Origin: Nibricoccus aquaticus
GTDB taxonomy: Bacteria; Verrucomicrobiota; Verrucomicrobiia; Opitutales; Opitutaceae
Direction: 5' to 3'
NCBI RefSeq assembly: GCF_002310495.1
Contig: NZ_CP023344.1
Span: forward strand, 806,001 to 870,000
DNA length: 64,000 nucleotides
A program made the position numbers and the translations under genes. The first letter of the stretch is position 1, and every line of letters starts with the position of its first letter. The notes below the pieces were generated by a model. It was not told the origin of the DNA. It did no database searches and saw only the letters and a program-made list of their open reading frames with translations. This document shows, piece after piece, positions 26,215 to 47,098 of the stretch.

Positions 26215-26292
26215 GGCGGCCATAGCTCAGTTGGTTAGAGCACTAGATTGTGATTCTAGGGGTCGCGGGTTCGAATCCCGTTGGCCGCCCCA
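26215..26292 (+). tRNA. tRNA-His (anticodon GTG)
   Basis: Cloverleaf reads G-1 plus acceptor GCGGCCA paired with TGGCCGC, D-arm GCTC...GAGC, anticodon stem CTAGA/TCTAG with loop TTGTGAT (anticodon GTG, His), T-arm GCGGG/CCCGT with TTCGAAT, and encoded CCA. G-1 opposite C73 is the hallmark of tRNA-His. The 3' part is the attachment site of the following integrated element. Confidence 0.96.
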
Positions 26293-26296
26293 TTTT
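26268..26296 (+). repeat. attL, 29-bp direct repeat of the tRNA-His 3' end
   Basis: The 29 bases beginning GGTTCGAATCCCG and ending CCATTTT are repeated exactly at 47070-47098. The tRNA gene stays intact at this end, and the recombinase gene starts 60 bp further on. This is the usual layout of tRNA-targeted islands. Confidence 0.92.
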
Positions 26297-26355
26297 TTAC
26301 CTCTGGGAGGGGAAAAATCGAAGCTAGGTTGCCCAGTTGACGTGGCAACCTAGAC

Positions 26356-27546
26356 ATGCCGCATCAAAACTTCGTCGTCAGCCGGTTCAAAAATCGCAAT
26401 GGCGTGATCACGTTTCGCGTGGAAGGCCGACTCAACGGCGTCCGCATCCGCAAGAACTTCAAATCCCGGGAAGAGGCTATCGCCGAGAAAGGCATTCTCG
26501 ACCTTCAAGCCCTCCAGTCGTCTTCTGACATCCAACCGGTACAGACCTCGCTTGCTGCTGCGCAGGTGCGCGAGGCGGAAGCCGCTTTCCAGCGGTTAAA
26601 GGGCCGGGCCAAATCGCTGGCCTTCTATTTGGACTATGCTCTGACCAACTACCACGACCCGGCCTTGGACATCTCATTGGCCGACGCCACTGACGCCTAT
26701 GTGGTCTTGCGGGAGCAGGATCACCGGGAGAACAACCTGTCCCACAGGCAATTCACGGCGTATCGCTGCGAACTTAGAGCGCTAAAAAAAGCTTTCCCGC
26801 GGATTACTCCTTCCGAACTTACGCCCAGCGCTCTCATCGATTATTTCAAACGCGGAAACGCTTCGAAAAAGGCTTACAACAACCGCCGCGGACTGGTCGG
26901 TGCATTTCTCAAGCACTGCATGCTCAAGGATTGGGTTTCGAAGAACATCATCGATAAAGTGCCACACTTCCGAGGGGTTGGTCATAGACGTGGATCAGCG
27001 CCAACCCTGACCGCGAGCCAATGCGCAGAAATAATGGAATGGGCGGAAGCTAATGCAGGCGGCGGCCTCGTCCCGTTTATCACTCTCTGCCTCTTCGCAG
27101 GCATCCGCCCTGATCTTTATCAGGGCGAGATATCCAAGCTGAAGCCGGAGCACGTCCGTCTGGACACCGGTGTGATCATGGTTGAACCGAACGTTTCCAA
27201 GGTGCGGATGAAACGAACGGTGACCATTCAGCCCAATCTGAGGGCGTGGTTGCAGGCCTATCCGCTGGAGAAATACCCGATCTGGCCAAACGGATTCAAA
27301 CGCTTGCGGTTGGAATTCAGGAAACGCTTTAACCTCACGCACGACGTGCTGCGACATACGTTCATTTCGATGCATGTTGGAAAATTTCGATCGCTCGGAG
27401 ATGCAGCGCTTCAGGCAGGAAACTCGGAGAGCATCATCCGAAAGCACTACCTCGATCTCAAGAACCCTGGCGAAGCGGAGCAGTTCTTTGGGATCTTCCC
27501 AAAGAAACAAGTAGAGCAAACGTCGAGCGACGCAGCTGCTGCTTAA
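26356..27546 (+). CDS. int: Tyrosine recombinase/integrase of the tRNA-His element
   Basis: 396 residues. Integrates and excises the element at the tRNA-His 3' end. An N-terminal arm-binding-like domain (residues 1-60, NGVITFRVEGRLNGVRIRKN) is followed by a SAM-like core-binding domain (about 100-200) and a C-terminal catalytic domain. The catalytic set is visible: Arg251 in FAGIRPD, Lys near 272-276, His329-x3-Arg333 in HDVLRHTF, and the nucleophile Tyr365 in IRKHYLDL. Its position next to attL and its direction are typical. Lower GC than the flanking core genes. Confidence 0.94.
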   Translation: MPHQNFVVSRFKNRNGVITFRVEGRLNGVRIRKNFKSREEAIAEKGILDLQALQSSSDIQPVQTSLAAAQVREAEAAFQRLKGRAKSLAFYLDYALTNYHDPALDISLADATDAYVVLREQDHRENNLSHRQFTAYRCELRALKKAFPRITPSELTPSALIDYFKRGNASKKAYNNRRGLVGAFLKHCMLKDWVSKNIIDKVPHFRGVGHRRGSAPTLTASQCAEIMEWAEANAGGGLVPFITLCLFAGIRPDLYQGEISKLKPEHVRLDTGVIMVEPNVSKVRMKRTVTIQPNLRAWLQAYPLEKYPIWPNGFKRLRLEFRKRFNLTHDVLRHTFISMHVGKFRSLGDAALQAGNSESIIRKHYLDLKNPGEAEQFFGIFPKKQVEQTSSDAAAA

Positions 27547-27603
27547 CGTACGTCCGTGGTGATTAGCCTCTGGTTGCGTCGGTTGACGCGCAATCAGAGG
27601 CGT

Positions 27604-27837
27604 ATGGAAACACAAACGTCATCCACTGTCCTGAATCCAAATCAGCTGACCGATATCGCAGGCCTGCGCTCGAGCGGTGTTTTCCCTCAAGGAAAAGAAC
27701 CCTCCATCCGCACGCTTCGCGATTGGACCAAACTGCGCCGCATTCCGCATCACCGTGTCGGGCACTTCGTCTACTTCGATCCTGCAGAAGTAGCGGAGCA
27801 CATTCGCACCAAACTGAAAGTTCCCGCGCGTGGGTAA
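27604..27837 (+). CDS. Small HTH protein, probable excisionase/AlpA-like
   Basis: 77 residues from the ATG at 27604. It has a helix-turn-helix-like part (SIRTLRDWTKLRRIPHHRVG) followed by FVYFDPAEVAEHIRTKL, a pattern common in AlpA/MerR-type excisionases and plasmid-borne regulators. It starts 57 bp after the integrase stop, likely in one operon, and is closed by a terminator hairpin at 27850-27880. Role in excision is inferred from position and motif. Confidence 0.72.
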   Translation: METQTSSTVLNPNQLTDIAGLRSSGVFPQGKEPSIRTLRDWTKLRRIPHHRVGHFVYFDPAEVAEHIRTKLKVPARG

Positions 27838-27849
27838 TGCTTGGCAGCC

Positions 27850-27884
27850 AAAAGCCGCACCTGGAATCGGTGCGGCTTTTTACT
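27850..27884 (+). terminator. Terminator after the integrase/HTH operon
   Basis: AAAAGCCGCAC / GTGCGGCTTTT perfect stem (27850-27860 and 27870-27880) with a 9-base loop and T-run on the plus strand, 12 bp past the HTH stop. Confidence 0.9.
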
Positions 27885-28168
27885 CCCACGAAAATCGGCA
27901 ACATGTTTCTCAATGCGCCAACAATCCCGGGTCCGGAGTAGTGGGCGTATTCTCTGCATTCCGATAGGCCCGAGAATCTCATACGGTGAAAACGACACGC
28001 GTGTTTCGTTTTTATAACGGTTAGTGCGGCTTTTCTGTGTTTCCAGAAAATCGGCAACACGTGTTGCCGAATACGCCCAGAATCCCGGACCCGGAGTTCT
28101 GGGCGTATTTTTTGCATTCCTGTGGAGACCTGAAAATCGAAAGAGACGAAAACGAAACACGTGTTGCG
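27870..28168. repeat. Two degenerate ~145-bp tandem units with palindromes
   Basis: Units at about 27870-28010 and 28024-28168 share GTGCGGCTTTT, AAAATCGGCAACA, AATCCCGG, GGGCGTATT and CGTGTTT/CGTGTTG in the same order. Inside are CGGCAACACGTGTTGCCG (28052-28069, perfect 18-bp palindrome), ACACGCGTGT (27995-28004) and CGAAACACGTGTTGCG (28153-28168, one mismatch). No reading frame is plausible across both. It may be a binding array for the HTH or relaxase proteins, or an excision/transfer site. Confidence 0.6.
28070..28113 (+). terminator. Terminator-like hairpin in the second repeat unit
   Basis: Perfect 13-bp stem (AATACGCCCAGAA at 28070-28082 with TTCTGGGCGTATT at 28097-28109) followed by T6. 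The convergent genes end on either side, so it can stop plus-strand transcripts from the integrase side. Confidence 0.75.
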
Positions 28169-28171
28169 CTT

Positions 28172-28564
28172 TCAGAATGGAAGGCCACCTGAGGGACGCT
28201 TGTCCGGCTCGGCGAGCAAACGAATTTCCAGATGCGAAATGAACGAATCGGAGTCCTGGAATTTCATCCGATAAGCAGCCGGATAGCTTTTGAATCGGGA
28301 AATTTTATGGAGGGAGAGTTCTTCACGATACCAATGCAGCTTTTCTCCAAGGACTAGGACCTCGTGGTTAGTGAACTGAAGATCGATTCGCTCGAATTGC
28401 TCCTCGTGAGATAATTTCGCGCTCTCTAGCCGAGACCAGGGTAGCACCCACTCTATACCCTGCCACGGCTGCAAGAACAGCATTAGGCAGGAGTTGTTTT
28501 CGTGGGTCACGCACATAGGAAGCCCGCCTTGTTTGGTCGCCAGCATTTCGCGAAGTCGGTTCAT
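28172..28564 (-). CDS. Hypothetical protein co-transcribed with relaxase
   Basis: 130 residues. Its start overlaps the relaxase stop in ATGA, which strongly supports translation coupled to the relaxase. Mixed alpha/beta look, with LMLFLQPWQGIEWVLPWSRL in the middle; no signal peptide, no known motif. No function assigned. Probably a mobilization accessory protein by position only. Confidence 0.6.
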   Translation of the reverse strand: MNRLREMLATKQGGLPMCVTHENNSCLMLFLQPWQGIEWVLPWSRLESAKLSHEEQFERIDLQFTNHEVLVLGEKLHWYREELSLHKISRFKSYPAAYRMKFQDSDSFISHLEIRLLAEPDKRPSGGLPF

Positions 28565-31317
28565 AGATGAATGTGTTGATGGTTATTTTGAGTGGCGCGC
28601 ATCGCAGCTTGATGACGACGCACATGCTCGACGGCCGACATCGACTGCCGCGCTCTCGCTGATTGTTTCACGTCAACCGACGTTGCGTCCGTCGAAGCCA
28701 GGTCGAGCGCGAGATCCCGCTCGCCACACTGCTGGACGTGGGCTCGCAGTTCTTCTTTGTCAGCGGTGAAAACCGTTACCCTCTTTCGACCGCGCGAAAT
28801 GGATACGTACCACTGCTGCGCGTTGGTGGCCGCGCGATTAGCCGCATCCGCCAGCAAGACCGAATCGACCGTCTTCCCTTGCGAACCATACGACGTGACA
28901 GCGTAGCCCCGTGTGAAAAGACGTTGTGTGGGACTCAGTGTCTTCCGGACGGCTTTTCCGCCTTCAACCACCAATGACCCATCAACGGAAATCTCGCGAA
29001 CCGTGACCAGCTCGCCGTTGTTAAAGCGCTGTCCCTCACGTGACTTTCCATTGAACTTAAGTTGCAGCCGCTCACCCACCCCGATCGCGGTCTCCTTTTC
29101 TGCCGCGACAATAAAGCGATCAGCGTATCGAAAGCTCATCGCGCTGCGGACACCGTCCTTTTCGAAGATCACCCCTTTCTCGGTGGTACCGACGATGGAA
29201 TAAATTCCTCCACGAGCAAAGCGGCCATAGCCCCGGATGAAGTACGCGCTTTGTCCCTCTTGATAGAAGCGGGCGTCGCGCTTTTGAGCCTCGTCCAGAT
29301 CGACCGGCTGATACGTTTTCAGCACCGAGCTTTCGCCAAGCGCTCCCGAATCTCTCAACTTGTCATGGATCGCCTCATTGATCTGCCGGACCTCTTCCCG
29401 GGTCTGAGCCACAACGAGCGTCCGTTCCTTGCGACCGACGGAAGCAACATATTCGGATGCGATAACCTCACGGCGAGAATCGTCGCTGACCTCACGCACA
29501 CAGCCGAGCCGATCCAGTGCGTCGAAGGAATCCGCAATCTTGCCGTCGGCCGCCAGTTTCACGGCGTTTCGATAGTCACGGATAAATGTCCGCTGCTCGA
29601 TAGTCTCTCCGAGCTTAGGATCTTGTCTCCGGATCGCATGGATCACTGCCGGTTTTAAGCCTGCATGTTTCTCGATGGCGCGAAGTGCATCAGACGCAGC
29701 GACCGAACCATGCTGACGGGTATCACCCGAGAGAATCAGTCGCCCACGTTGAGCCTTCACGACGCGAACTAGTTCACCGAGTTGCCGAGCCCCAATCTGA
29801 CCAGCCTCATCGACCATCACAACGGCTTCGCGTGGCAGCTGTTTTTGTTGTAGGAAATTCGCGAGCGTATCGGCACTCAGTCCATCCGCTTGGAGGTCCT
29901 GCACCTGTTGGCGTTGAGGAGCCAGGACGATGACTGGACGAGCCGCAGCCACCAGGCCGCGCTCGACCTCTTTGAGCGCAAAGCTTTTCCCAGTTCCTGC
30001 GCCGCCACGGAATAGCGTAATTAAATCCCGACTTCGCAAAATTCTTTCCACCGCTACCTTCTGTTCAGCCGAAAGATCGACCGACGTCTCATGATGCGGA
30101 CTCAGTGCCGTGTGCTGGTTACGTCCTTCCCGTGCAGCCATGACCACTTCCAGTTCCCAGCCCAGCGTCTCTCGGGAGGTAAGTTTGTCGGTTCCTTTCT
30201 CACGCACGTAACCGCGTTGGTCGATGACCGCTCGCAGCGTACCTAAATCGAAATCGGCACCGCGTCCGCGTTCCAGCGCAGCAGCCATGAGTTCATGGTC
30301 ATGCACGACCGCGCGACGCTCGAAGAGATGCTGCTCCGCCCACACAACCATCCCGGCCACATCCACTTTCTGCGCCACTCCTGAGCGGGTCGATTTCAAT
30401 GCATGCAGAGCCGACAGTTCGTCCGGCTGCATTTGCTGACCCCAAGTCTCGCGGAGTCGATCCGCCGAAGAGTTCTTCAACTTCCTGCGCCGGTTTCCAT
30501 GCGCGACGCGTTCGCGAAGGTCGTTGAGGTTTTCGACCTTCTCGCCTTTCGCCAGACGCTCCCGCGTTTCCTGATCGATCTGCTGATGACGTTTTGAAAA
30601 CCGTTCGATGACACTTTGCGGCACTCCCTTGATTTCGAAACCGCGTGCGTGGTTTTCGATTTCGTAGCCGAGTGCGCGTAGGCCTTTGCAGAGTTCATGG
30701 CGGTACAGGTTGGTCGCGAACCGATGCGCCCGGTACATGCCCGCCGCATGCAGCGCCTTCCAGCAGTTTTCCACCGGATCGAACGTCTGATTAAAGACTA
30801 CACAGTGCGTATGCAGATGAGGATCCAACTCCCGACTGGTCTCATGCCGAAAGCACGCGGTCACCACGTCGCCCGTGATGCGCTCACTGTTCTGTCCGGA
30901 TTTTCGGATGCGAGCCTCAGCCCGCTTTTCCAACTCATGCATGGCAGCACGGACTGCGCATTCGTGAAGTCCGACGATGCGTTCGTCCTGATAAAGAGCG
31001 ACGACTGAAACGCTCTTCGGTGGCGCAATCGTGAAGTCGAAGAAAATTCGCCGGTTCGCTTTCACCTCATCGCCTTCTTGTCTGACTGAGTTCAGTCGCT
31101 GACCCAAGCGAAGCTTCGTCTCCGGATGCTGGCCTTCACAGAGCGCGAGGAATGCATCCTCACCAACAGCTCCTTTGAGTCCGAGTTTTTCAGCGCCATT
31201 GCCAAGCCACTCTCCAGTGACCTTCTGCCCTTCCGAATAATAGTCGCCAGCACCGAGGTGCTCGCGGAAATACTGCTGTGCATTCTTCAGGTTGAACTGA
31301 ACTTTGGTCTGTATCAT
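28561..31317 (-). CDS. MobF-family conjugative relaxase with helicase domain (TrwC/TraA type)
   Basis: Nicks and unwinds the element DNA for transfer. 918 residues from the ATG at 31317; a longer frame up to 31500 crosses a hairpin-rich noncoding stretch and is unlikely. Candidate catalytic tyrosines Tyr16 and Tyr26/27 lie near the N-terminus (AQQYF, GDYYSEG), as in TrwC. The metal-binding triad region HLHTHCVVFN is at 167-176. The RecD-like helicase part has Walker A GGAGTGKS at 438-445, Walker B DEAGQ at 503-507, and a C-terminal TSYGSQGKTVDSV motif. No type IV secretion genes are nearby, so transfer would need a helper. The stretch upstream is a candidate oriT. Confidence 0.93.
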   Translation of the reverse strand: MIQTKVQFNLKNAQQYFREHLGAGDYYSEGQKVTGEWLGNGAEKLGLKGAVGEDAFLALCEGQHPETKLRLGQRLNSVRQEGDEVKANRRIFFDFTIAPPKSVSVVALYQDERIVGLHECAVRAAMHELEKRAEARIRKSGQNSERITGDVVTACFRHETSRELDPHLHTHCVVFNQTFDPVENCWKALHAAGMYRAHRFATNLYRHELCKGLRALGYEIENHARGFEIKGVPQSVIERFSKRHQQIDQETRERLAKGEKVENLNDLRERVAHGNRRRKLKNSSADRLRETWGQQMQPDELSALHALKSTRSGVAQKVDVAGMVVWAEQHLFERRAVVHDHELMAAALERGRGADFDLGTLRAVIDQRGYVREKGTDKLTSRETLGWELEVVMAAREGRNQHTALSPHHETSVDLSAEQKVAVERILRSRDLITLFRGGAGTGKSFALKEVERGLVAAARPVIVLAPQRQQVQDLQADGLSADTLANFLQQKQLPREAVVMVDEAGQIGARQLGELVRVVKAQRGRLILSGDTRQHGSVAASDALRAIEKHAGLKPAVIHAIRRQDPKLGETIEQRTFIRDYRNAVKLAADGKIADSFDALDRLGCVREVSDDSRREVIASEYVASVGRKERTLVVAQTREEVRQINEAIHDKLRDSGALGESSVLKTYQPVDLDEAQKRDARFYQEGQSAYFIRGYGRFARGGIYSIVGTTEKGVIFEKDGVRSAMSFRYADRFIVAAEKETAIGVGERLQLKFNGKSREGQRFNNGELVTVREISVDGSLVVEGGKAVRKTLSPTQRLFTRGYAVTSYGSQGKTVDSVLLADAANRAATNAQQWYVSISRGRKRVTVFTADKEELRAHVQQCGERDLALDLASTDATSVDVKQSARARQSMSAVEHVRRHQAAMRATQNNHQHIHL

Positions 31318-31678
31318 CGCCGTGTTTTCCCGACTCGGCGGCGACCACTTACGAAACGAAGTCTCGTTTCGTTTTGATGAGACACCCTTCCCCTTGCGGT
31401 GGACCGCAACAGAAGAGCTTTCGCAAGCGCGACACGCCTTTGTCGCACCTGCTCCCGCGTCAACCGGAACGGCAACCGACGAAGCGGCGATGCCGGACAA
31501 ATCCGGTTCAACGCCTAAACGGCGTTTCGGCCGCCACGAATGCGCGCCGCGCTGCGCTGTTTCGGCGCGCCCTCGTGGCAGAAAACCAACAGAGCGGGCG
31601 CGGAGATTCGAGCGACTCCGTCACTTGCTTCGCTGCGTTCCTACGCACCCGAAACTCCGCGCCCGACGATCCAAAACC
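31318..31678. other. Candidate oriT: hairpin-rich region upstream of relaxase
   Basis: No credible gene; open frames here have no recognisable content. Four inverted repeats are visible: ACGAAACGA/TCGTTTCGT at 31351-31372 (perfect), AACGCC/GGCGTT at 31510-31526, a 16-bp arm pair at 31533-31548 and 31564-31579 (14 of 16 paired), and a 15-bp arm pair at 31596-31610 and 31650-31664 (14 of 15 paired) whose loop holds a smaller TGCGT/ACGCA hairpin. Such structure directly upstream of a MobF relaxase gene suits an origin of transfer. The nic site cannot be placed. Confidence 0.5.
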
Positions 31679-32010
31679 TTAGTACGCCACAATCAAATCA
31701 GCGATCCCGCGCAGCTTATTACGAAGACCTGGCAGCCTCCGCTGGCTCGCGGAATCACCCGGTAAGTGACCCGCAAGCGCTTCAAGAAACGACGAATTTC
31801 TGAGAAGATCTCGCACCGATTTGAAAACGTACTCGCGCAATCCGGCGGGCCCCGCATCGACTTCCGCGACGATTTTTTCTTGGCCATCAATCACGCCAAC
31901 AAAATCTTCGAGGTCATGACTCGCGTAGAAACCGAGCTCACCGCGACCAGAAAAGGCCAAATATTTTGTAGCGAGAAATGCTGTCGGAGGAATCAGCCGC
32001 GAATGAGTAT
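31679..32010 (-). pseudogene. Remnant of a nucleotidyltransferase-fold (AbiEii-like) protein, C-terminal half
   Basis: The readable part PTAFLATKYLAFSGRGELG, FYASHDLEDFVGVIDGQEKI and AGPAGLREYVFKSVRDLL resembles the C-terminal half of small nucleotidyltransferase-like proteins that often occur in genomic islands. The N-terminal half with the GS...D.D motif is missing, and the upstream frame is closed or non-homologous. Called a remnant for that reason. A short functional start cannot be excluded. Confidence 0.5.
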
Positions 32011-32115
32011 GCGCGTTTCTTGATCGGTTACAGTCGCCAAGTTTCAGCAAACCAAGCCGCGTTCAAAGCGAGGTCACTCAAGTCCGCTCCGACATGGGTG
32101 CTCATAGCAATGTGG

Positions 32116-32249
32116 CTAAGACATCTTTTCTTTCTTATCTTTGAGCCACGGCCAAACATCGTTGGGCATCCAACCCTTGTACTGATGTAGATCGATATCA
32201 AGAGACCAAAGGCGCCATTCTCACCCGTTATGTCTTCCTGAAGAGCCAC
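32116..32249 (-). pseudogene. Possible frameshifted tryptophan-rich small ORF
   Basis: After a GTG start (32249) the frame reads MALQEDITGE; one base inserted would continue it as WRLWSLDIDLHQYKGWMPND then VWPWLKDKKEKMS and a stop at 32116-32118. This has the look of a real protein, but as written the sequence is out of frame. Low confidence; it lies just downstream of the DUF3102-like gene. Confidence 0.25.
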
Positions 32250-32273
32250 TTCGTCAGTCTCGAACTTAGCTCT

Positions 32274-32777
32274 TTATTCAAATAGCGATCTAAGCTTTTC
32301 GTAAAGCGGGCGCAGATCTTTTCGGTAGGTGGACAGACGGTCTGGTGACAATCGAGCGGGCTGACCAAGGGACTTCAGCAACCTGCCCGCCAATCCAATG
32401 TAATGAGGAACTGGTGGGATAACTAAATTCTGGGCGGCGGATTTAGGCTCCGTAGCAATTCCCAGCCTGAAATAAACCTGACGCAGACTTAAGCCGTGAA
32501 AGGCAGACACGTCGGAAACATTCTTTGCCAAGAGCATGTATCGCTGCGCCGTGCGCGGCGTACTTGCGAAGTATTGCTCTAGCCAAATCTGCCAGGCTCC
32601 GGCGCCCATGCCGCGCCGAACGCGACGCTTCGCTTCCATCAAAAGCTGTCCAGCGCGCCACGCTGAGGTCAGTGCACCGTGGAGAAGGTCCCGCGATTCC
32701 TTACTCGCTCGAACAACCTCGCCGTGAAGGCGGTTAATCTCAACAGACGCGCATTCATTGTTTGGATATTCGGTCAT
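32274..32777 (-). CDS. DUF3102-like hypothetical protein
   Basis: 167 residues. The block GQLLMEAKRRVRRGM, WQIWLEQYFASTPRTAQRYM and LLAKNVSDV is the core of DUF3102-like proteins often found on plasmids and mobile elements. No leader. It follows the small HTH gene by 8 bp on the minus strand, so they form an operon. A role in replication or partition control of the element is possible but not shown. Confidence 0.65.
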   Translation of the reverse strand: MTEYPNNECASVEINRLHGEVVRASKESRDLLHGALTSAWRAGQLLMEAKRRVRRGMGAGAWQIWLEQYFASTPRTAQRYMLLAKNVSDVSAFHGLSLRQVYFRLGIATEPKSAAQNLVIPPVPHYIGLAGRLLKSLGQPARLSPDRLSTYRKDLRPLYEKLRSLFE

Positions 32778-32785
32778 ATCCCAGC

Positions 32786-33067
32786 TTAGGCCGTGATCTG
32801 GGTGGTTTCGCGAAATGAGATCGCCAGCTTATGAACGGCCTGCCGGGTCCGACCGAGATTATCTCCGATCTGCCCAAGCGTAGCGTGATCGAGGAGATCG
32901 GGGCGCACACAATAGAGCGCAACACAAACGCGCAATCCTCTCTCCTCTATGGAGCGGCCATCGGCCATCCAAAGCAACAAGCGGCAGATAACTTCTGAAG
33001 CTAGCATGCGGGCCTCTTGCTGAGCATCGAAGGGCACCTCAAAGAACAAATCGGTATCTGTTTTCAT
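32786..33067 (-). CDS. Small HTH protein
   Basis: 93 residues from the ATG at 33067. The C-terminal half (LGQIGDNLGRTRQAVHKLAI) has a sigma region-4-like helix-turn-helix pattern. The N-terminal half (FFEVPFDAQQEARMLASEVI) is helical. First gene of a two-gene operon with the DUF3102-like gene. Likely a DNA-binding regulator of the mobile element. Confidence 0.6.
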   Translation of the reverse strand: MKTDTDLFFEVPFDAQQEARMLASEVICRLLLWMADGRSIEERGLRVCVALYCVRPDLLDHATLGQIGDNLGRTRQAVHKLAISFRETTQITA

Positions 33068-33270
33068 GAATCCATTCGCTGGCACGCAGCGCCTTCGCTC
33101 AACAACCTGCGTCTACTGAATTAAGGGGATACGATATACCTAAAAAAGGGTAGCCAGACAGATACCGCCCCTGCTTTTCCGATCGATCGTGCGAAACGAA
33201 AACGTCGTCTTCCAGATACGCTCCTCATCTCAGCAGAGTCTTCGAAGCCTGAGAGGGTAGCGTTCCGCAA

Positions 33271-38718: not shown

Positions 38719-40281
38719 CTACTTCAACGCCTTGGGTTCCGGCGCGATTTCTTTTCGTTCACCCACGCGCTCCGGCAGGCCGCTGGTGAGCCGGGTGTAC
38801 TCGGTGCTATGTGGGCGGATAAGGACCACGCCGCTGTCGTCGATGACGTACTCGCGGATGTCTTTGCTATGGTTTCCACCGCGCATTTTCACCACGACGA
38901 GAATTTTCCGGAGTTGCCCGTCTATCTCCACGTAGCGAAGCCGGATGATGTCATCCGTCAGAAACGAGATCGCATAGTGACTGAATTGAAACGACGTGAA
39001 CGAATCCTCGATCTCGACCGTGCTGACGATCGTGACTCCGGCTCCCGTCAGCGCGCCAATCATCCGGTAGAGCGACTCGCGAAAGTCCGCGCGAAAGCCG
39101 GGGGCGATCGCCATTTCGAAACCCACCAGTGAATCGATCACGAGCCGTTTCGCGCCGGTTCTTTTCACCGCATCGAGAATCTCCTGCATCGTTTCATCCA
39201 CCGAAAGATCGAGCGGTCGCAGATACAGGACTTCGAGTTTTCCCGCCTGCTGTGGTTTGGAGAGATCCAAGCCAAGCCCCGCCGCGCGGGCAACATAGCC
39301 TTCCGGACGCTCCTCGAAGATCGCGATGATGCCGGATTCTCCTTTGCGAATCCCAGCATCGATAAACTGGGTCGCGAGCGCCGACTTCCCTGTGCCCGAG
39401 GGACCCGCGATCAACACGCTGTCGCCTTCGGGAATCCCACCGCCCAGCAATTTGTCCAATTCGCGGATTCCCGTGGAGAGCCGCCGACCCGAACGCGGAG
39501 ACGTCTTTCTCCCGGCCAGTCCCAAGGTGCGGGAAAATGCCTGCAAGCCGTAGCTCCCAATCCGGATCGTGTGCAGCCCAGGCACGGAGGCCTGGCCGCG
39601 AAGCTTGATGATCTGGAGCTTTCTCACCACCGAGTTTCGTTCGGCGACTTGGGAGAGCCAGAAAAGCCCGTCGGCGACCGTGAACACGGGATTGTCGCGC
39701 ATCTCGGACTCGGTGTATTCGCCGATCAAGAACGTGGTCGCCTGAAAACTCGTCAGCAGCATGGCCAGACGCTGGATGAACGATTGAAGCTCCATCTCGG
39801 ATTCAGCTCCGCGCTGGGCTACCTTGCGCAGCACGGTGCGAAAGGAGTCCACCACGACGACGCCGGCGTTGGATTTTTCCACCTGCTTCGTGATCTCGGC
39901 AAGGACGGCGCTCAGATCCTGCTCAACGACAACCTCGGTGAGGTTGATGAAGCGGATAGAGTCGTTTAATTTCTCACTGTCGAAAAACGAATACTGCTGC
40001 TGGTAGCGCAGCATCTTGATGGCGGGTTCACCGAGGACGGTGAAGTAGAGCGCAGGTCTTTTCGGCGTCGCGTTGGCGAAGACGAATTGATGCGCGAGCG
40101 TGGTCTTTCCGCATCCAGGCGTGCCCGCGATGATGTTGAACGAATACTCCGGCAAACCGCCGCCGAGAATATCGTCGAGCCCTCGCACGCCGGTGGGCAG
40201 CTGGCGGATCGTCACTTTACCCGCGGCAATGGCGGGTTTTTCAGCGCGGGTGCGCGGGGTGACGACGGATTTATTTTTCAT
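38719..40281 (-). CDS. KaiC-like double RecA-domain ATPase
   Basis: 520 residues, as long as cyanobacterial KaiC. It starts at the ATG 40281; a longer frame exists upstream. Two RecA domains: Walker A GTPGCGKT at 53-60 (CI) and GPSGTGKS at 293-300 (CII). The catalytic Glu pair is intact in CII (IFEERPEG, 323-324), but CI has LGEP with one Glu. The CII end around 436-443 (YAISFLTD) aligns with the KaiC autophosphorylation site S431-T432: Ser439 is kept and the Thr is Phe440. No kaiA or kaiB is present. First or second gene of a five-gene signalling operon with a small partner, two kinases and an Rcp-type regulator. Likely a KaiC-type switch, not a proven clock. Confidence 0.92.
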   Translation of the reverse strand: MKNKSVVTPRTRAEKPAIAAGKVTIRQLPTGVRGLDDILGGGLPEYSFNIIAGTPGCGKTTLAHQFVFANATPKRPALYFTVLGEPAIKMLRYQQQYSFFDSEKLNDSIRFINLTEVVVEQDLSAVLAEITKQVEKSNAGVVVVDSFRTVLRKVAQRGAESEMELQSFIQRLAMLLTSFQATTFLIGEYTESEMRDNPVFTVADGLFWLSQVAERNSVVRKLQIIKLRGQASVPGLHTIRIGSYGLQAFSRTLGLAGRKTSPRSGRRLSTGIRELDKLLGGGIPEGDSVLIAGPSGTGKSALATQFIDAGIRKGESGIIAIFEERPEGYVARAAGLGLDLSKPQQAGKLEVLYLRPLDLSVDETMQEILDAVKRTGAKRLVIDSLVGFEMAIAPGFRADFRESLYRMIGALTGAGVTIVSTVEIEDSFTSFQFSHYAISFLTDDIIRLRYVEIDGQLRKILVVVKMRGGNHSKDIREYVIDDSGVVLIRPHSTEYTRLTSGLPERVGERKEIAPEPKALK

Positions 40282-40282
40282 A

Positions 40283-40690
40283 CTATTTCCCTGTGGACTT
40301 GGGGTCCTTGAGTGCCGTTTGCGGCCAGACGTCATGCACGAGACGAAGCGTCAGGGCTTCGCCAATAAAAGTAATGAGCAGCCCGAGTAACTGATCCACG
40401 AGAGCGGCACCCGCTTGCGCGGCTTCGGCCGAAGCGGACTGCGCCTCCATCTCGGGGGAATACAGAAAGGTGCCGTCGGCTTTTATCTGCACTCCGGCCA
40501 GCAACGGTGCGTCCACTCGGGCCAGCACCAGCGCCCGGCTTAAAAGCGAGCGGAACCCGGCGGCCCCGGCAAACGTGCACAGCGGCGCACGTAACTTCTC
40601 ACAGACGCGAAATGCGGCGCGACTAGGCGGAGCGGAATCGCGGTCGGCGCGGCGTTCTTCGGCGATGAGGATTTGGGCGAGCGTTCGCAT
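40283..40690 (-). CDS. Small protein upstream of KaiC-like gene
   Basis: 135 residues from the ATG at 40690 (GTG at 40696 also possible); stop only 1 bp before the KaiC start. Predicted mostly helical: QILIAEERRADRDSAPPSR, FRSLLSRALVLARVDAPLL, then an Ala-rich helix and LLGLLITFIGEALTLRLV, which could be a hydrophobic or membrane-associated helix, ending in DVWPQTALKD. Not recognised. The tight coupling to KaiC argues for a dedicated partner, perhaps an input or tethering subunit; this is inference. Confidence 0.7.
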   Translation of the reverse strand: MRTLAQILIAEERRADRDSAPPSRAAFRVCEKLRAPLCTFAGAAGFRSLLSRALVLARVDAPLLAGVQIKADGTFLYSPEMEAQSASAEAAQAGAALVDQLLGLLITFIGEALTLRLVHDVWPQTALKDPKSTGK

Positions 40691-40692
40691 CG

Positions 40693-40992: not shown

Positions 40993-41212
40993 GGATAGAT
41001 ACCGAGCAGAATGCAGGCAGCGCTCACACTACCCACAACTCAGTCGGAGCCCAATGGGGTATTAACCTACGGAAAGATTTTAAGAATCATTTCGGCTGGA
41101 GCCCGCACGCGGGCTTATCGGGGCGCCTCGATTGCTTGATCGGGACAAGCGTGGTCTGCTGAGTGATGTCTGGATCATTTTATTTTTTGTTACGCTTCAA
41201 TGAAGGCTTGGT

Positions 41213-43498
41213 TTGAGCGACACGTCACTGCCGGGGCGGATCGCCTTCATTGGCGGCTACTCGCCCAGACAGTGCGGCATCGCCACGTTCACCCACGATC
41301 TCTGTGAGGCTGTCGGAGCGGCCGTGCCCGCGGCGCAGTGTTACGCGGGCGCGGTGAATGACCGGGTGGAGGGCTATAAATATCCTCTGCGTGTGCGCTT
41401 CGAGATTTTGGAGAAGGATCTCGATTCCTACCGCAGGGCTGCGGACTTTCTAAATTTCAACAATGCCGACGTGCTCTGCGTTCAGCACGAGTTCGGAATT
41501 TTCGGCGGGCCCGCCGGCAGCCATGTGCTGGCACTGCTCAAAGAGGTGCGCATGCCAGTGGTGACGACGTTGCACACCGTGCTGCGCGATCCGAATCCCG
41601 CGCAGATGATGGTCATGAAAGAACTGATTCTCCGGAGTGACCGGCTGGTGGTCATGGCGCAGAAGGGCGCGGAGATCTTGCGCGATACGTACGCGGTGCC
41701 CGATTCGAAAATAGACGTCATACTCCACGGTATTCCGGATATTCCATTCACCGATTCTCGTCTCTCCAAGGCGCAGTTCGGCGTGGAAGGCCGCATCGTG
41801 TTACTTACCTTCGGCCTGCTCGGGCCGGGCAAGGGTATTGAGTATGCCATCGAGGCACTCCCGGAGATCGTGAAGACTCATCCAAATGTCGTGTATTTGA
41901 TCCTCGGTGCGACCCATCCGCATCTCGTCGCGCGCGAAGGCGAACGCTACCGTTTGAGCCTGGAGCGGCTGGCGGAAGAGCGCGGCGTGAAAGAGCACGT
42001 TATTTTCTACAACCGTTTCGTGTCGCTCGACGATCTCAGCGAATTCATCGGCGCGACCGACATCTATGTGACGCCATATTTGAACGAGGCGCAGATCACC
42101 TCTGGCACGCTCGCTTACGTCTTCGGCGCGGGCAAAGCCGTGGTCTCCACTCCCTATTGGCACGCGCAAGAACTGCTGGCTGATAACCGCGGCATCCTCG
42201 TGCCGTTTCGAAATCCCGCCGCAATCGCCGCGGGCGTGTGCGAGTTCCTCGATCATCCGGAGCGTCTCGAAAAAACACGGCACGACGCTTATCAAATGGG
42301 ACGCGAAATGATCTGGCCCGCCGTGGCGCAGCGCTACGTGGAATCTTTCCAACGCGCCCGCATCGATCGCCGCGCTCAACCGCGCACGGCTTTCGCGGGA
42401 TGGACGCTCGCCAGCCGCCCGTACGAACTTCCGCCACTGCGACTCGATCACATCGTGCGCATGAGCGACGGTACAGGAATTTTTCAACACGCGTTGTTCA
42501 ACGTCCCTAATTTCCACGAGGGGTACTGTACCGACGACAACGCGCGGGCCTTCATCCTGTGCAATCTCCTCGAAGAACTCGGTAACGAGCCGCACGTCGA
42601 AAAGCTCAACGATCTCGCAACGACCTATCTCGCGTTCCTCGCCGCAGCGCTCAATCGCGGTACGGGACGCTTCCGAAACTTCATGAGTCATGGTCGTCAG
42701 TGGCTTGAAGTCGCCGGGAGTGAAGACAGTCACGGCCGCGCCATGTGGGCGCTTGGATCTGGCACGGGCCGCTCGCGCAATGAAGGGAGGCGCCGTCTAT
42801 CCGCGCAGCTTTTCGATAACGCCGTGAACGGTATCGAAACCTTCACGTCGCCGCGCTCCTGGGCCTTTGCGCTACTCGGCGTGCACGACTATTTGCGTGA
42901 GTTTCCAACGAACGGACAGGCGCTGGCCTTGCGCGTTGTGCTCACGAAACAACTCGTTCAGCGGTGGAAGGACTGCGCAACAGAGAATTGGCCGTGGTTC
43001 GAAGAAATCGCGAGCTACGACAATGCGCGCCTGTCACAGGCGCTGATTCTCAGCGGTCGCTGGATGCCTGATCCGGAGGCCTTGGAGATCGGTCTGAAGT
43101 CGTTGCGCTGGCTGGCCTCGATTCAGAGAACCCAAGCAGGGCACTTCCGTCCTATCGGAAGCGAAGGCTTCTATGTCCGCGATGGAGCCCGCGCCGATTT
43201 CGACCAGCAGCCTGTCGAAGCGCAGGCGATGGTGTCTGCCTGTCTCGAAGCGTTTCGCGTTACAAAGGACGTGAGCTGGTCGCGCGAAGCCAAACGCGCC
43301 TTCGAGTGGTTTTTAGGACGCAACGATCTCGGGCTCCCGCTCTACGATCACAGCAACGGCGGTTGCAGCGACGGTCTTCACCGGGACCGCGTTAACGAAA
43401 ACCAAGGCGCGGAGTCGTCGTTAGCATTTCACCTTTCCCTCGCAGAAATGAACCACGCCGAATCCCCAACGGCCCACCCGTTTGCCTCCCACCGATGA
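41213..43498 (+). CDS. GT4 glycosyltransferase fused to a C-terminal alpha/alpha-toroid domain
   Basis: 761 residues from a TTG start at 41213, with a GAAGG ribosome site 7 bases before it; an ATG at 41200 is out of frame. Residues 1-385 form a GT-B fold: IAFIGGYSPRQCGIATFTHD at the start, VQHEFGIFGGPAG, LHGIPDIPF, LTFGLLGPGKG and the acidic ITSGTLAYVFGAGKAVV block. Residues about 390-760 are an (alpha/alpha) toroid-like domain (TDDNARAFIL, HGRAMWALGSG, DNARLSQALILSGRW, VEAQAMVSACLEAF). Its stop overlaps the GH130 start in ATGA. This pairing suggests synthesis and turnover of a mannose-containing glycan. Confidence 0.85.
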   Translation: MSDTSLPGRIAFIGGYSPRQCGIATFTHDLCEAVGAAVPAAQCYAGAVNDRVEGYKYPLRVRFEILEKDLDSYRRAADFLNFNNADVLCVQHEFGIFGGPAGSHVLALLKEVRMPVVTTLHTVLRDPNPAQMMVMKELILRSDRLVVMAQKGAEILRDTYAVPDSKIDVILHGIPDIPFTDSRLSKAQFGVEGRIVLLTFGLLGPGKGIEYAIEALPEIVKTHPNVVYLILGATHPHLVAREGERYRLSLERLAEERGVKEHVIFYNRFVSLDDLSEFIGATDIYVTPYLNEAQITSGTLAYVFGAGKAVVSTPYWHAQELLADNRGILVPFRNPAAIAAGVCEFLDHPERLEKTRHDAYQMGREMIWPAVAQRYVESFQRARIDRRAQPRTAFAGWTLASRPYELPPLRLDHIVRMSDGTGIFQHALFNVPNFHEGYCTDDNARAFILCNLLEELGNEPHVEKLNDLATTYLAFLAAALNRGTGRFRNFMSHGRQWLEVAGSEDSHGRAMWALGSGTGRSRNEGRRRLSAQLFDNAVNGIETFTSPRSWAFALLGVHDYLREFPTNGQALALRVVLTKQLVQRWKDCATENWPWFEEIASYDNARLSQALILSGRWMPDPEALEIGLKSLRWLASIQRTQAGHFRPIGSEGFYVRDGARADFDQQPVEAQAMVSACLEAFRVTKDVSWSREAKRAFEWFLGRNDLGLPLYDHSNGGCSDGLHRDRVNENQGAESSLAFHLSLAEMNHAESPTAHPFASHR

Positions 43499-44955
43499 AC
43501 ACGTTATCCGTCCGCCGTCACGAAATCACCCTCCTGCCTGACAGTGCACGCGTCATCATCCGGCCGTTTATCCCCTCCGCTGTCGAACGCATCGCCGGCG
43601 TAATCGGTCGCGCGCTGGCACTTTCGGAAGACGAGGTGGTGAAAAAAGTGGAGGTCATCCATCAGGCGTTCGACTCCCGCCATCTCGATATCGAAACGCC
43701 GCTGCTCGAGCACTACGCCAAGGTGCGAAAGCATGTCGCGACACCGCATCCGCTCTCACGTGCGCGGGAACTCCTGATCGGCGCATTGTTTTCCGGCGAA
43801 TATGCCTTGGAGTCAGCGGCGCTGTTTAATCCGTCCATCGTGCCCCACCCCGATCAAAGCGGCGTGGCGGATGGCGGTCTGCGTTTCATCATGAGCCTGC
43901 GCGCCACCGGCGAAGGACACATCTCGTCCATCGAGTTTCGAGAGGGAATCATTTCGCCTGCGGGCGACATCAGCTTCGCGGAAGTTTCCCGCTTCGTGAC
44001 GATGCCTCAGCTCGTCCCCAACCCCAGTTATCAAAAGAAAAGCTTCATCACGAAGTTGAAGGAGATGGGTTTTGAAAACGACTGCGCCACCGCCGTCATG
44101 GAGCCGCTCGGCGCGCAGTTCACCCGCACCGATCTGGGCAGCAGCGTGGCCCGCACGCGAAACGAAGCATTGCCCGCCACGCACGAATTCTCCCGCACGC
44201 TGGAGTGCATCAAGTGGCTCGCCGACTCCAACTACGAGCTGCGCTTCTCGCCGAAAATCTCGCTGAGCGAACGGATCATTTTCCCCGTCTCAGCCAATGA
44301 GAGCAACGGCATCGAAGACGCGCGTTTCGTGCGCTTCACCGAGGACGATGGCTCAATCCTCTATTGCGCGACCTACACCGCCTACAACGGACGTGTCATT
44401 CTTCCCCAGCTAATCGAGACGCAGGATTTCCTGCACTTCCGCGTGCTCACCTTGAACGGCAGTGGCGTGCAAAACAAAGGCATGGCGCTCTTCCCCCGGC
44501 GCATCAACGGCCGCTACGTGATGCTTTCGCGACAGGACGACGAAAACATCCTCATCATGTTTTCCGACTACCTCCACTATTGGAGCGATCCAGAAATTCT
44601 TCTGCGCCCCGCTGAAGTCTGGGAATCCGTGAAACTCGGAAACTGCGGCTCTCCGATTGAAACCGACGAAGGCTGGCTCGTCATCACGCACGGAGTCGGT
44701 CCGATGCGTACTTACTGCATCGGTGCTGTGCTCCTCGACCTCGACGATCCAACGCGCGTCATCGGCCGCCTTCGCGAGCCCATTCTCTCAGCGGAAGGAA
44801 TCGAACGCGAAGGCTATGTGCCCAACGTCGTCTACAGCTGTGGGTCCATGATCCACGCCGGAAAACTCATATTGCCCTACGCGATGAGCGACAAAGCCAC
44901 CGCCATCGCGAGCATGCCGCTCGATAAGCTGCTCTCGGAAATAGTTCGGGATTAG
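43495..44955 (+). CDS. GH130-family glycosidase/phosphorylase
   Basis: 486 residues. Features of GH130 are visible: a helical N-terminal cap (VEVIHQAFDSRHLDIETPL), a five-bladed propeller with ESAALFNPSIVPHP, and GIEDARFVRFTEDDG, KGMALFPRRINGRYVMLSRQ and PRPAEVWESVKLGNCG-like loops (LLRPAEVWESVKLGNCGSPI). The helical cap is typical of the GH130 groups acting on beta-1,2-linked mannosides or annotated as mannosidase/phosphorylase. Translation is coupled to the GT4 gene. Whether hydrolase or phosphorylase cannot be told here. No leader, so cytoplasmic. Confidence 0.85.
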   Translation: MNTLSVRRHEITLLPDSARVIIRPFIPSAVERIAGVIGRALALSEDEVVKKVEVIHQAFDSRHLDIETPLLEHYAKVRKHVATPHPLSRARELLIGALFSGEYALESAALFNPSIVPHPDQSGVADGGLRFIMSLRATGEGHISSIEFREGIISPAGDISFAEVSRFVTMPQLVPNPSYQKKSFITKLKEMGFENDCATAVMEPLGAQFTRTDLGSSVARTRNEALPATHEFSRTLECIKWLADSNYELRFSPKISLSERIIFPVSANESNGIEDARFVRFTEDDGSILYCATYTAYNGRVILPQLIETQDFLHFRVLTLNGSGVQNKGMALFPRRINGRYVMLSRQDDENILIMFSDYLHYWSDPEILLRPAEVWESVKLGNCGSPIETDEGWLVITHGVGPMRTYCIGAVLLDLDDPTRVIGRLREPILSAEGIEREGYVPNVVYSCGSMIHAGKLILPYAMSDKATAIASMPLDKLLSEIVRD

Positions 44956-45170
44956 TGCGCTGCCGCAGGATATACAAATTGGTCGGAAATCCAGGGATTG
45001 GTATCTATCTGCCTCCGGACGCTCGTGCCATTAAGTGATACCGGGTAGGCGATGGCTCCCCGAAACTGGAGGAGTAGGCCCCAACTACCCACCCTCTGCC
45101 CCCAAACGCAGCTGCTTGCTCGCTTGGGCGTTATAGCTTGTAGGCAAACCCGTGGAGCTACCACTGCGGC

Positions 45171-45471
45171 GTGAACAAGTACTTCGATGAGATCCGCAAA
45201 GCGATTCAGGCGACTCACCGATGTGACGCGGTTCACATGGAGAGCGTCCACGTTACGCAAAGCCTGGCCGGTAAGACCGCGTGGGATGGCGAAGTGGAAG
45301 CTTTCAAAATGGGAGATTCTTCAAAAGCGAATGTCTGCTTTGCGTGGGGCTCTCAAAACGCCCAAAGCGGTCGATGGAATATCTACTACGGTATTGGCCA
45401 TCGCCCCCGTCCTGACCGCAGTTGACGCCGTGAAAGCATCACTCGCTGTCGATGAGCGCAAAAACGATTAG
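45171..45471 (+). pseudogene. Conserved hypothetical gene with a frameshift at a C5 run
   Basis: The frame from GTG 45171 (ATHRCDAVHMESVHVTQSL, then GKTAWDGEVEAFKM, ANVCFAWGS) resembles conserved proteins with an 'ETF.GKTVWdG.VEVF...YAW' core. It ends early at 45425. A second frame contributes the expected C-terminal helix (AVDAVKASLAVDERKND, stop 45469-45471). Skipping one C in the C5 run at 45404-45408 joins them. Either a pseudogene or a sequencing error. Confidence 0.5.
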
Positions 45472-45547
45472 GGTCGTGCCCTCGTTCTGAAGCCGCCAAG
45501 GTGCTGACGTAATGTGTTATCGGCGCACCATGAAATGAGAATTCAAC

Positions 45548-45790
45548 TCATGAGCCCGAAGTTAGTGGACGATGCAATATTTCCGCTTCCGCGGCCAGCC
45601 AGTGCGCAAGGCTGCGATCGTCGGGGCGACCGGCTTCTTCCCACATTGAGAAAGCGCGTAGACTGATTTCTTTCCGTTGAACGGCGCTGACGGAGACTAA
45701 CCCAGCAACTCTGGGATCAGGAGAATCCGCGAACCCCTCCGTTTTGCTGAAGCGTGAAGTATGTGAAGGCACGACCGGTTCGGAATTCAT
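45548..45790 (-). CDS. Second DUF2934 protein
   Basis: 80 residues from the ATG at 45790 (a second start at 45805). The end reads SLRAFSMWEEAGRPDDRSLA then HWLAAEAEI, the DUF2934 signature, parallel to the gene at 34557-34784. Surrounded by low-density sequence at the far end of the element. Function unknown. Confidence 0.65.
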   Translation of the reverse strand: MNSEPVVPSHTSRFSKTEGFADSPDPRVAGLVSVSAVQRKEISLRAFSMWEEAGRPDDRSLAHWLAAEAEILHRPLTSGS

Positions 45791-45805
45791 CGGGTACGGT
45801 GCCAC

Positions 45806-46077
45806 ACATCGCTACCGACAGCAACAAACCTTGGCGGCGGAGGAATGCTGGCAATTTTTCGACCCGGTCTATCCTAGTCTTGCATCAAGTCATGTGCCCA
45901 AATCAGTGCGGCTAGGACAAAAAACAATGTCCTGATAGAGGGACTTCAGGCGTTAAAGCTATCGCTGAAACAGAACAGTGCTAATTGCGCGCCTCGATGC
46001 TGCACGGTCTGCAGACAGCAGGCGCCTGAGAGTAGTTTACGCTCCGTCAAATGGAAGGATTTCACGGGTGTACTCGG
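45806..46077. other. Low-density stretch, nothing supported
   Basis: About 270 bp between the DUF2934 gene and the next candidate. Only short frames without known content. Base composition is lower in GC than the core genome, in line with acquired DNA. Confidence 0.4.
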
Positions 46078-46344
46078 CTAGGTGATTGTTGACGTCCCGT
46101 TCTGTATATTTGCTCTTCGGAAAAAGACGACGCGATGCTGAGGCCGGGTCGCGTGGACGGGTGTCAGGACCATCGCGAGAATCCAGTGCGTGGAGGAATC
46201 GGTGTAGCCAATTGTTTTGCCGCCGGATTGGATGAACAGGCGATTTTTCGCCGAGATGTCTTTAATGGCCGCGAGCACCGTGATTTCGTCGTCACAAGTG
46301 ACGATCGCATCGGGCGACTCCATGGCAGTGTTAGTGGTGAACAT
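46078..46344 (-). CDS. Hypothetical small protein
   Basis: 88 residues with an alpha/beta look (DDEITVLAAIKDISAKNRLF, then GGKTIGYTDSSTHWILAMVL). No leader, no known motif, no recognisable relatives. Kept as doubtful: the frame is short and overlaps an alternative frame on the other strand. Confidence 0.35.
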   Translation of the reverse strand: MFTTNTAMESPDAIVTCDDEITVLAAIKDISAKNRLFIQSGGKTIGYTDSSTHWILAMVLTPVHATRPQHRVVFFRRANIQNGTSTIT

Positions 46345-46581
46345 CGCGCACTCTTCGGTCGCTAGGCAGATGCGGTCAATTGCGCGCCCTACAAGATAGC
46401 ACTGCTACTGAACGAGCAACGACTACGGTTATGCGCGACCTCTCCAACGAAAGTTTCTGAAGAAAATACTGAGTTTGAATCTGGTGCTGAGCCTGCGGGC
46501 AGTATGGGGAAATCCCCTGAAATGTTCTCCTAGCAGACGTTGGCACTTGGTTTGGTTCCCATTCTCGGCCTCGTTGTGGGA

Positions 46582-46854
46582 ATGCCCGACGATGACGTCG
46601 AACCTGAGATGATAAATCAGGCGTTTCGAAAAAGAGACGCGGAGACATTGCTGGCTTTACTGGATCGTTTAGAACCAAAATTCAAATACACACCGGCTTT
46701 CGTGCACATCCGGTTGGCGCGGACACTTCTTAAGCGCATTAACAGAGTTCAGGCGAAGCCCGAATCAGCCAAGGCCCATGAACTAACAAAGACGTGGGAT
46801 GAGATGGGGCAGAAAATTTTCGACATGCACCTGGCGATCTCGCGATCACTATGA
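46582..46854 (+). CDS. Hypothetical helical protein
   Basis: 90 residues from the ATG at 46582; the TTG at 46540 would add a hydrophobic stretch. Helical throughout (PEMINQAFRKRDAETLLALL, then AFVHIRLARTLLKRI and HELTKTWDEMGQKIFDMHLA), like one TPR-type or armadillo-like motif. Unknown function. Last gene of the element; 216 bp of AT-richer sequence without a gene separates it from attR. Confidence 0.5.
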   Translation: MPDDDVEPEMINQAFRKRDAETLLALLDRLEPKFKYTPAFVHIRLARTLLKRINRVQAKPESAKAHELTKTWDEMGQKIFDMHLAISRSL

Positions 46855-47069
46855 GCAATTGGTCCGCGGAACGAAAGCTCCATACCTCAATCAAAATCTA
46901 TTATGTATTCATATTATGATTACCGAAATATAGGTTGCCCAAAGGTTGCCCAAAACCCTGCTTTTGGCTTCACTTTTCAGAATCTGGATGCTTTTCTCTG
47001 CACGTCCTAAACCATTAACCTATAATTAAGTCCGCGTATTTGAGCGACTTAGCTTCAGCGACCAGAATT

Positions 47070-47098
47070 GGTTCGAATCCCGTTGGCCGCCCCATTTT
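47070..47098 (+). repeat. attR, 29-bp repeat of the tRNA-His 3' end
   Basis: Exact second copy of 26268-26296. Only the last part of the T-arm and acceptor stem is present, so this is no tRNA gene. It marks the right end of the integrated element; the nos cluster starts 99 bp further on. Confidence 0.92.

Follow-up and report, generated by a model that had tools for sequence, protein, structure and literature searches.

Canonical integrative mobilizable elements (IMEs) possess an integrase, flanking attachment (att) repeats and a relaxase of their own but no mating-pair formation genes; a 2017 review assigns to the known ones relaxases of the classes MobP, MobQ, MobV and MobC, and none of MobF or MobH (PMC5704250). 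In a 2024 marine survey, contigs with MOBF/TrwC relaxases are classed, as predictions, as 'mobilizable, ICE' (ICE, integrative and conjugative element; PMC11104534), and a 2011 survey reports 402 chromosomal relaxases without a neighbouring type IV secretion system (T4SS). Based on this listing and this count, elements of the kind described below are known already. Here we report on an island in Nibricoccus aquaticus (Verrucomicrobiota; Opitutaceae), located at 26215-47098 of a 64,000-nucleotide stretch (positions 806,001 to 870,000 of NZ_CP023344.1; hereafter the window, to which coordinates refer). The island shares the integrase, the att repeats, its own relaxase and the absence of mating-pair genes with canonical IMEs as the review depicts them (PMC5704250), but its relaxase is of the MobF class. 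The 20.8-kb interval is probably an IME that descended from an ICE lineage and integrated at tRNA-His. A sequence-only reading of the same DNA had proposed an IME, and its structural claims held in the analyses below.

The sole tRNA gene within the window is tRNA-His (gtg; 26216-26292, plus strand; ARAGORN; Rfam tRNA 72.6 bits), which stands whole at the left end of the island as the integration target. By exact repeat search, a 29-bp direct repeat of its 3' end was found at 26268-26296 (attL) and 47070-47098 (attR), both on the plus strand with a spacing of 20,802 bp. When the letters of 45000-49000 were shuffled 30 times, the tRNA region never matched over more than 13 bp, and the 21-nt core of the repeat (at most 2 mismatches) occurs twice in the complete 4,730,447-bp genome, both times at the island. 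These results confirmed the repeat that had been noticed at both ends. GC content is 0.53-0.60 in the island versus mostly 0.61-0.68 outside, although it is also low (0.57-0.59) at 19-23 kb in the left flank.

The sequence-only reading had named the lack of any strain with an unoccupied tRNA-His as an outcome that would speak against it, and this outcome did not arise. Matches to the tRNA-His end were present in 203 genomes; 20 loci were fetched and 19 scanned with ARAGORN, of which 18 contained a full tRNA-His. No relative of the window integrase was found beside these 18 genes within the 1.5 kb or less examined downstream (merely about 40 bp at one locus, L010). Three genomes (G010, G022 and G025) carry a single copy of the tRNA-His end together with the same upstream neighbour as in the window, an exonuclease-family gene. 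The unoccupied genes are from genera other than that of the window, the comparison set containing no genome of the same genus. In one genome (G026), tRNA-His holds a 30.1-kb island that gave no match to the window integrase and whose 34-bp repeats likewise end in CCCCATTTT. Judging from these sequences, tRNA-His is used repeatedly as an integration site, by different elements. The open reading frames (ORFs) of that island (L092-L094, G026:C24:19850-49995) resemble a defence cluster, perhaps of the DISARM type. At another locus (L015, G011:C27:46487), a lone tRNA-His 3' end adjoins an integrase fragment, perhaps the scar of a lost element. In the right flank of the island (47200-50697), a membrane protein and an ABC-ATPase-like ORF were recognised by eye; the flank also carries a gene of the NosD family and is perhaps a nitrous-oxide reductase region. 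The NosD gene was not found in the 8 genomes of the nearest genus (a search without positive control).

A tyrosine recombinase gene (int; 26356-27546, plus strand; 396 aa) adjoins attL, as had been stated. Its product matched a PHROG integrase family (E 3e-21) but no Pfam or NCBIfam entry, and the R..HxxR..Y residues are present (read by eye). Of 273 genomes taken from the order, 119 gave matches at E <=0.001, many of them distant. We examined the context of the 19 best-match loci (L028-L046; 46-59% identity). A tRNA or tmRNA gene lies no more than 100 bp upstream of the integrase start in 17 of them (10 tRNA-Ser, 3 tRNA-Leu, 1 tRNA-Glu, 1 tRNA-Pro and 2 tmRNA), and none in the other 2. Downstream of int is a gene for a small Xis-like DNA-binding protein (xis; 27604-27837, plus strand; weak HTH_17 match, E 4e-4, below cut-off), whose homologues, 65-86% identical, are close to int in related elements. 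When 14 contigs were searched for tRNA-end repeats, repeats of at least 28 bp were found in 4 (G026, G096, G173 and G146; in G146, a 29-bp match within a tRNA on the same strand); the other 10 showed none or none longer than 17 bp, in many cases because the contig or the fetched stretch breaks off early.

The relaxase gene (28561-31317, minus strand) encodes 918 aa from an inner ATG. The product shows a TrwC domain (Pfam E 9e-81, 272 bits against a cut-off of 25) and an SF1 helicase domain (AAA_30, 124 bits), as does TrwC of R388, the MOBF prototype, and scores 227.7 bits against the NCBIfam MobF model (cut-off 100). The assignment to MobF, made before from the sequence, is thereby confirmed. 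Among 252 genomes of the family, 86 contain relatives at E <=1e-50. On the 3' side of the relaxase gene is h130 (28172-28564, minus strand), a small protein kept at this position in relatives; it matched nothing in Pfam, NCBIfam or PHROG, and its AlphaFold2 model (pLDDT, the predicted local distance difference test, 86.7) had no PDB match below E 0.27. The DNA between xis and h130 (27842-28174) is palindromic, with inverted and diverged direct repeats, and matches only itself in the genome. On the 5' side are a DUF3102-like gene (32274-32777, minus strand; Pfam E 0.002, below cut-off; homologues in related elements 30-59% identical) and the small gene h99 (32786-33085, minus strand), whose homologues (42-65% identity) also adjoin the DUF3102-like gene. 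Genes of the backbone int, xis, h130, relaxase, DUF3102-like and h99 recur in other elements without the cargo of the window.

No Pfam match to a T4SS component or coupling protein was obtained among the island ORFs scanned. By tblastn with the sequences of relatives, neither a coupling protein nor VirB4 was found in the island, a search that very divergent genes could escape. The absence of type IV secretion genes, another point of the sequence-only reading, was therefore upheld by both approaches. An ICE has VirB4 and a coupling protein inside the element, and neither was found in the island; what it does contain, an integrase with flanking repeats and its own relaxase with no mating-pair formation genes detected, is the gene set of an IME.

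The comparison covered 38 stretches that bear relaxases of this family, to which the second, distant relaxase of the own genome was added. A coupling-protein gene (~490 aa) is located 3' of the relaxase in 22 of the 38, and VirB4 relatives are present in 7. One genome (G085) bears on a single contig a window-type integrase at tRNA-Ser, xis, VirB4-like and TrbI/VirB10 genes, a coupling protein and the relaxase. The coupling protein scored 45 bits with PF10412 (cut-off 20.5) and also passed TraG-D_C and T4SS-DNA_transf; VirB10 (TrbI) scored 84 bits (cut-off 35), whereas VirB4 reached 18.6 bits against the PF19044 cut-off of 25.8, and VirB3-, VirB5- and VirB9-like genes were below cut-off. By its gene content, the G085 element is an ICE with a divergent T4SS. 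PF03135 matched only 2 of the 252 family genomes and PF19044 29 (14 above cut-off), which may be due to the same divergence of VirB4. A complete sister element in G096 (26.0 kb, 28-bp repeats at tRNA-Ser) has the coupling protein, and a VirB4 relative was not found in it. The same element (L099-L090, G096:C396) carries ATP-grasp-like and ABC-exporter-like genes with small ORFs, resembling by eye a peptide-modification cluster.

A relaxase tree was built with 38 rows, 37 of the family (G145, partial, was omitted) and the distant one, using a quick method without bootstrap. The window relaxase belongs to a clade of 6 (window, G081, G013, G144, G075 and G221a; 100 in the SH-like approximate likelihood-ratio test, SH-aLRT). 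In this clade, xis-int or int, not the coupling protein, follows 3' of h130. The clade is nested within a larger set of coupling-protein carriers, and G152 in the sister clade is also without the gene. The coupling-protein label changes 2 times on the tree, with 9 of 38 rows unlabelled, and none of 500 shuffles was as low. The outgroup branch is very long, so it is the breadth of carriers that suggests the direction, namely loss rather than gain of the coupling protein. Because the window clade is without this gene and nested among carriers, the island was likely reduced from an ICE, shedding the coupling protein and the T4SS.

About 260 bp of non-coding DNA before the relaxase gene is conserved and common to IMEs and ICEs. 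We propose 31351-31578, 34-261 bp upstream of the relaxase gene, as a candidate origin of transfer (oriT). On the minus strand, it includes a large covarying hairpin of 48 bp (31531-31578), for which the match of a covariance model stops 201 bp short of the relaxase start. It further includes a candidate nic region with a 6-bp hairpin, then GGGGAAGGGTGTCT (31376-31414), and a 9-bp hairpin 3' of the nic-like site (31351-31372), both also on the minus strand. By blastn, the large hairpin was detected in 13 of 39 stretches, each time on the relaxase strand. The covariance model built from those 13 stretches (15 sequences; E cut-off 1e-4) detected it upstream of 28 of the 38 relaxases (E <1e-4), again on the relaxase strand, including 15 of 25 outside the model-building set. 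In the 1.0 Mb searched there was no other match at E <1e-4, save opposite-strand matches of the same palindromes. The hairpin is 175-263 bp before the relaxase start in 26 of the 28 cases and at 639 and 722 bp in the others, and three elements have a second copy. Its exact pattern gave 0 matches in IMG/VR viral contigs.

The paired positions of the large hairpin covary. Across 27 matches in alignment, both partners have changed at 9 of the 15 pairs (0/500 shuffles) and 96.2% of cells pair (0/500 shuffles; slid controls at most 53.6%); this alignment was fitted to the model, and an unfitted one showed double changes at 3 pairs. The stem contains 31 G.T versus 1 A.C cells, so it is apparently on the relaxase-sense strand that the structure is constrained. 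The nic-like site consists of a 6-8-bp hairpin and then ~14 nt ending in G(T/C)GTC(T/C). Leaving out 8 of the 38, we examined 30 leaders; 22 have the strict motif, which is present once in the 64-kb window. Of the 8 pairs in its hairpin, 5 show double changes (4/500 shuffles), with a covariation score reached by 0/500. In R388, the cleaved site is a hairpin followed by TATTGTCT/ATAG, and the window site likewise has a hairpin and then a stretch ending in TGTCT (PMC4176350, PMC4814116). The window differs from that oriT in having the extra large hairpin.

Several observations weigh against an oriT at this place. A confident large hairpin is absent in 10 of 38 stretches (two of these show weak matches at 201-204 bp, and the stretch L250 stops where its relaxase begins). 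Taken singly, the window hairpin has no unusual stability as DNA (z -1.4). Of the 8 pairs in the nic-like hairpin, one cannot form in 19 of the 26 sequences, and the pair-type count is not above shuffles (173/500). From the hairpin to the end of GTGTCT there are 14 nt in the window versus 8 nt before the nick in R388. The ~200-bp distance to the start codon is near-constant, and a TTGACG-like box lies between the hairpins in many rows (by eye); like the excess of G.T cells, which suggests a structure in the sense strand, these features would suit control of the relaxase gene by an mRNA leader or an operator. The large hairpin, however, sits upstream of the promoter-like box, GTGTCT after the second hairpin recalls the R388 site, and Rfam gave nothing at E 1 in 31300-32300. 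We regard a leader or operator in place of an oriT as the less likely but a serious alternative, and the two roles may coexist. Nicking on the relaxase-sense strand would also mean that the relaxase gene enters first, unlike in F and R388. Two other candidates for oriT were set aside: the palindromes at 27842-28174, which have converging genes on either side and are not upstream of the relaxase as the conserved region is, and a 16-bp inverted repeat at 31595-31665, which is outside the conserved part.

With the proposed oriT, the life cycle of the element can be outlined. The ancestor was most likely an ICE lineage of the same family that possessed, besides the MobF relaxase, a coupling protein and a divergent T4SS of the VirB type, both since lost. 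On entry, the integrase would recombine the 29-bp 3' end of tRNA-His with an identical site of the circular element, so that the tRNA stays intact; for excision of the circle, Int would act together with Xis. Binding and nicking by the relaxase would take place in the hairpin region, 34-261 bp upstream of the relaxase gene. Unlike in R388, no coupling-protein or T4SS genes were found in the island, and a related ICE, resident or newly arrived, would export the relaxase-strand complex via its coupling protein and T4SS. The relaxase leader of the related ICE has the same hairpins as the island. The passengers include a signalling cassette (h137, KaiC, two kinases and a regulator) and a GT4/GH130 glycan pair.

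Some points count against a mobilizable element of ICE descent. Excision, nicking, transfer, helper use and the cargo functions are deduced, none having been observed. Since many of the stretches compared are short or break off with their contig, a VirB4 missing from any single one says little. In the own genome, PF03135, PF10412 and PF19044 matched nothing, with 7 of 30 PF10412 and 6 of 10 PF19044 candidates scored; these models score the VirB4 of the family weakly, and the absence of a helper from the genome is unproven. The same scans, and an integrase that is incomplete or in two pieces in the close relatives G081 and G221a, would be in line with a decayed, immobile ICE remnant that integrated once, lost its transfer genes and moved no further. 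Against such a remnant, the att repeats are still identical, the reading frames of int, xis and relaxase are open, and the diverged clade without coupling protein (relaxases 65-76% identical to that of the window) keeps relaxase and hairpins in 6 of 6 members, as expected of elements still selected for transfer. We consider the remnant improbable and keep to the IME. Besides the island, the genome carries a second MobF element (G000:C1:3250641-3271558, L075-L076), which spans 20,870 bp and sits at tRNA-Asn with a repeat of 48 bp; by eye, its ORFs include type I restriction-like ones and, at the far end, one that is recombinase-like.

The signalling cassette is encoded on the minus strand: h137, a helical protein upstream of KaiC (40283-40690; locus context, alignment and AlphaFold2 model), a double-domain KaiC-like ATPase (38719-40335; Pfam KaiC E 3e-74), a PAS histidine kinase with receiver domain (36993-38708), a PAS histidine kinase (35568-36956) and a single-domain response regulator (35052-35510), the last three by Pfam. 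KaiC relatives with at least 67% identity are found in 12 of 252 family genomes, including that of the window, and the thirteenth match is 31% identical. In named genomes, 131 loci were confirmed and 80 listed (50-88% identity), with at least 7 phyla among the matches listed. The window KaiC represents a distinct subfamily. A KaiC tree of 81 rows, many of them metagenome-assembled genomes whose bins can be wrong, shows 20 phylum changes against a minimum of 6 and 40.1 in shuffles, and therefore vertical signal and several transfers seem to be mixed. The window KaiC falls in a five-row Verrucomicrobiota clade with two rows titled Opitutaceae, so its latest source was probably nearby.

Among the matches listed, h137 is directly upstream of KaiC in 67 of 80 named loci; with partly duplicate further loci included, it is beside KaiC in 79 of 94. 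The pairing extends over 6 of 7 phyla, both Gemmatimonadota loci being without h137, and 4 of the 13 h137-less named loci begin ~150 bp or less from a contig end. Carriers include Granulicella, Polaromonas glacialis and Paracoccus liaowanqingii; on a Paracoccus plasmid, KaiC and h137 stand together, followed by kinase and regulator, near insertion-sequence genes. No Pfam family matched more than 1 of 71 h137 members (best E 0.018). The model of h137 is mainly helical (pLDDT 90.8); Foldseek returned nothing below E 0.9 and a second structural aligner nothing above Z 6.3, and from the model a known fold can be neither claimed nor excluded. An h137 homologue (49%) and a response regulator also occur near the relaxase of another element (L084:1127-2064, G073:C29), in a stretch with no KaiC match.

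The window KaiC shares with KaiC of the KaiABC clock two RecA-like P-loop domains, both Walker A motifs, the CII glutamates (kept in 78/78 and 71/78 aligned sequences) and a Ser equivalent to S431 (71 of 76 aligned). With these residues, and with kinases and a regulator adjoining KaiC, a KaiABC-type circadian oscillator acquired from outside could be envisaged. However, the T432 position is Phe in 75 of 76, so that the adjacent S431/T432 phosphosites of the clock kinase are not both present, and the CI EE position is LG in a conserved LGEP (by eye). Neither KaiA nor KaiB was matched by the scanned ORFs of the island, to which the search for KaiB was confined, and h137 is the recurrent partner. 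Identity of h137 with KaiB is unsupported, since the model is helical whereas the KaiB-like domain has a thioredoxin-like fold (PMC5520375). The nearest KaiC rows are moreover from the same phylum. An imported oscillator is therefore hardly credible; the cassette would most likely be an ATP-driven switch, not a KaiABC clock, that feeds a two-component relay.

Much the same cargo is present near another MobF conjugation system. A complete genome (G173) has a coupling protein, a MobF relaxase (32% identical) and VirB4- and VirB10-like genes in one region; ~29-41 kb from the relaxase are genes for DUF2934, GroEL, h137, KaiC, a histidine kinase, a glycosyltransferase and GH130. The starts of relaxase and KaiC are ~34 kb apart, with an integrase gene on the far side; the KaiC match spans one TAA, and for terminal repeats there was one 14-bp match between two places compared. 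From this proximity, KaiC may lie inside that ICE. Further tyrosine recombinases, three of them Pfam-confirmed, are present in the cluster (L257-L260, G173:C1, 1488-1541 kb).

The remaining cargo comprises an Nramp-family transporter (33271-34551, minus strand; Pfam, NCBIfam), two DUF2934 proteins (34557-34784, Pfam E 2e-10, and 45548-45805, Pfam E 5e-9, both minus strand), a GT4 glycosyltransferase with a C-terminal extension (41213-43498, plus strand; Pfam) and a GH130-family protein (43495-44955, plus strand; Pfam). The C-terminal ~220 residues of the latter match solved GH130 enzymes (mannoside phosphorylases), whereas its N-terminal ~250 residues are unmatched and its scores are below NCBIfam equivalog cut-offs. 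Aligned with solved Nramp proteins, the transporter has other residues at the columns of the canonical metal-ligand motifs DPGN and MPH. Of the cargo listed by the sequence-only reading, the KaiC-like operon and the glycan pair stood, but 'metal transporter' is a family label only.

A literature search over titles and the beginnings of abstracts, with subscription papers outside its reach, found neither an IME of Verrucomicrobia nor an h137-KaiC pair. New here are the mapped oriT-like region, the ICE-to-IME series and the KaiC/h137 cargo. The case concerns MobF, a class that no known canonical IME used according to the 2017 review and that the 2024 survey lists in predicted ones. Within one relaxase family, the series leads from relaxase, coupling protein and VirB4 through relaxase and coupling protein to relaxase alone, and the shared oriT-like region makes the helper hypothesis directly testable. 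Tentatively, at somewhat less than an even chance, the island may exemplify an Opitutaceae-type satellite system of MobF IMEs that, having shed coupling protein and T4SS, ride co-circulating MobF ICEs by keeping their oriT-like region, with h137, not KaiB, as the constant partner of a kinase-signalling KaiC with one phosphosite in several phyla. The findings also connect a widespread KaiC subfamily with mobile DNA and with h137, its recurrent partner.

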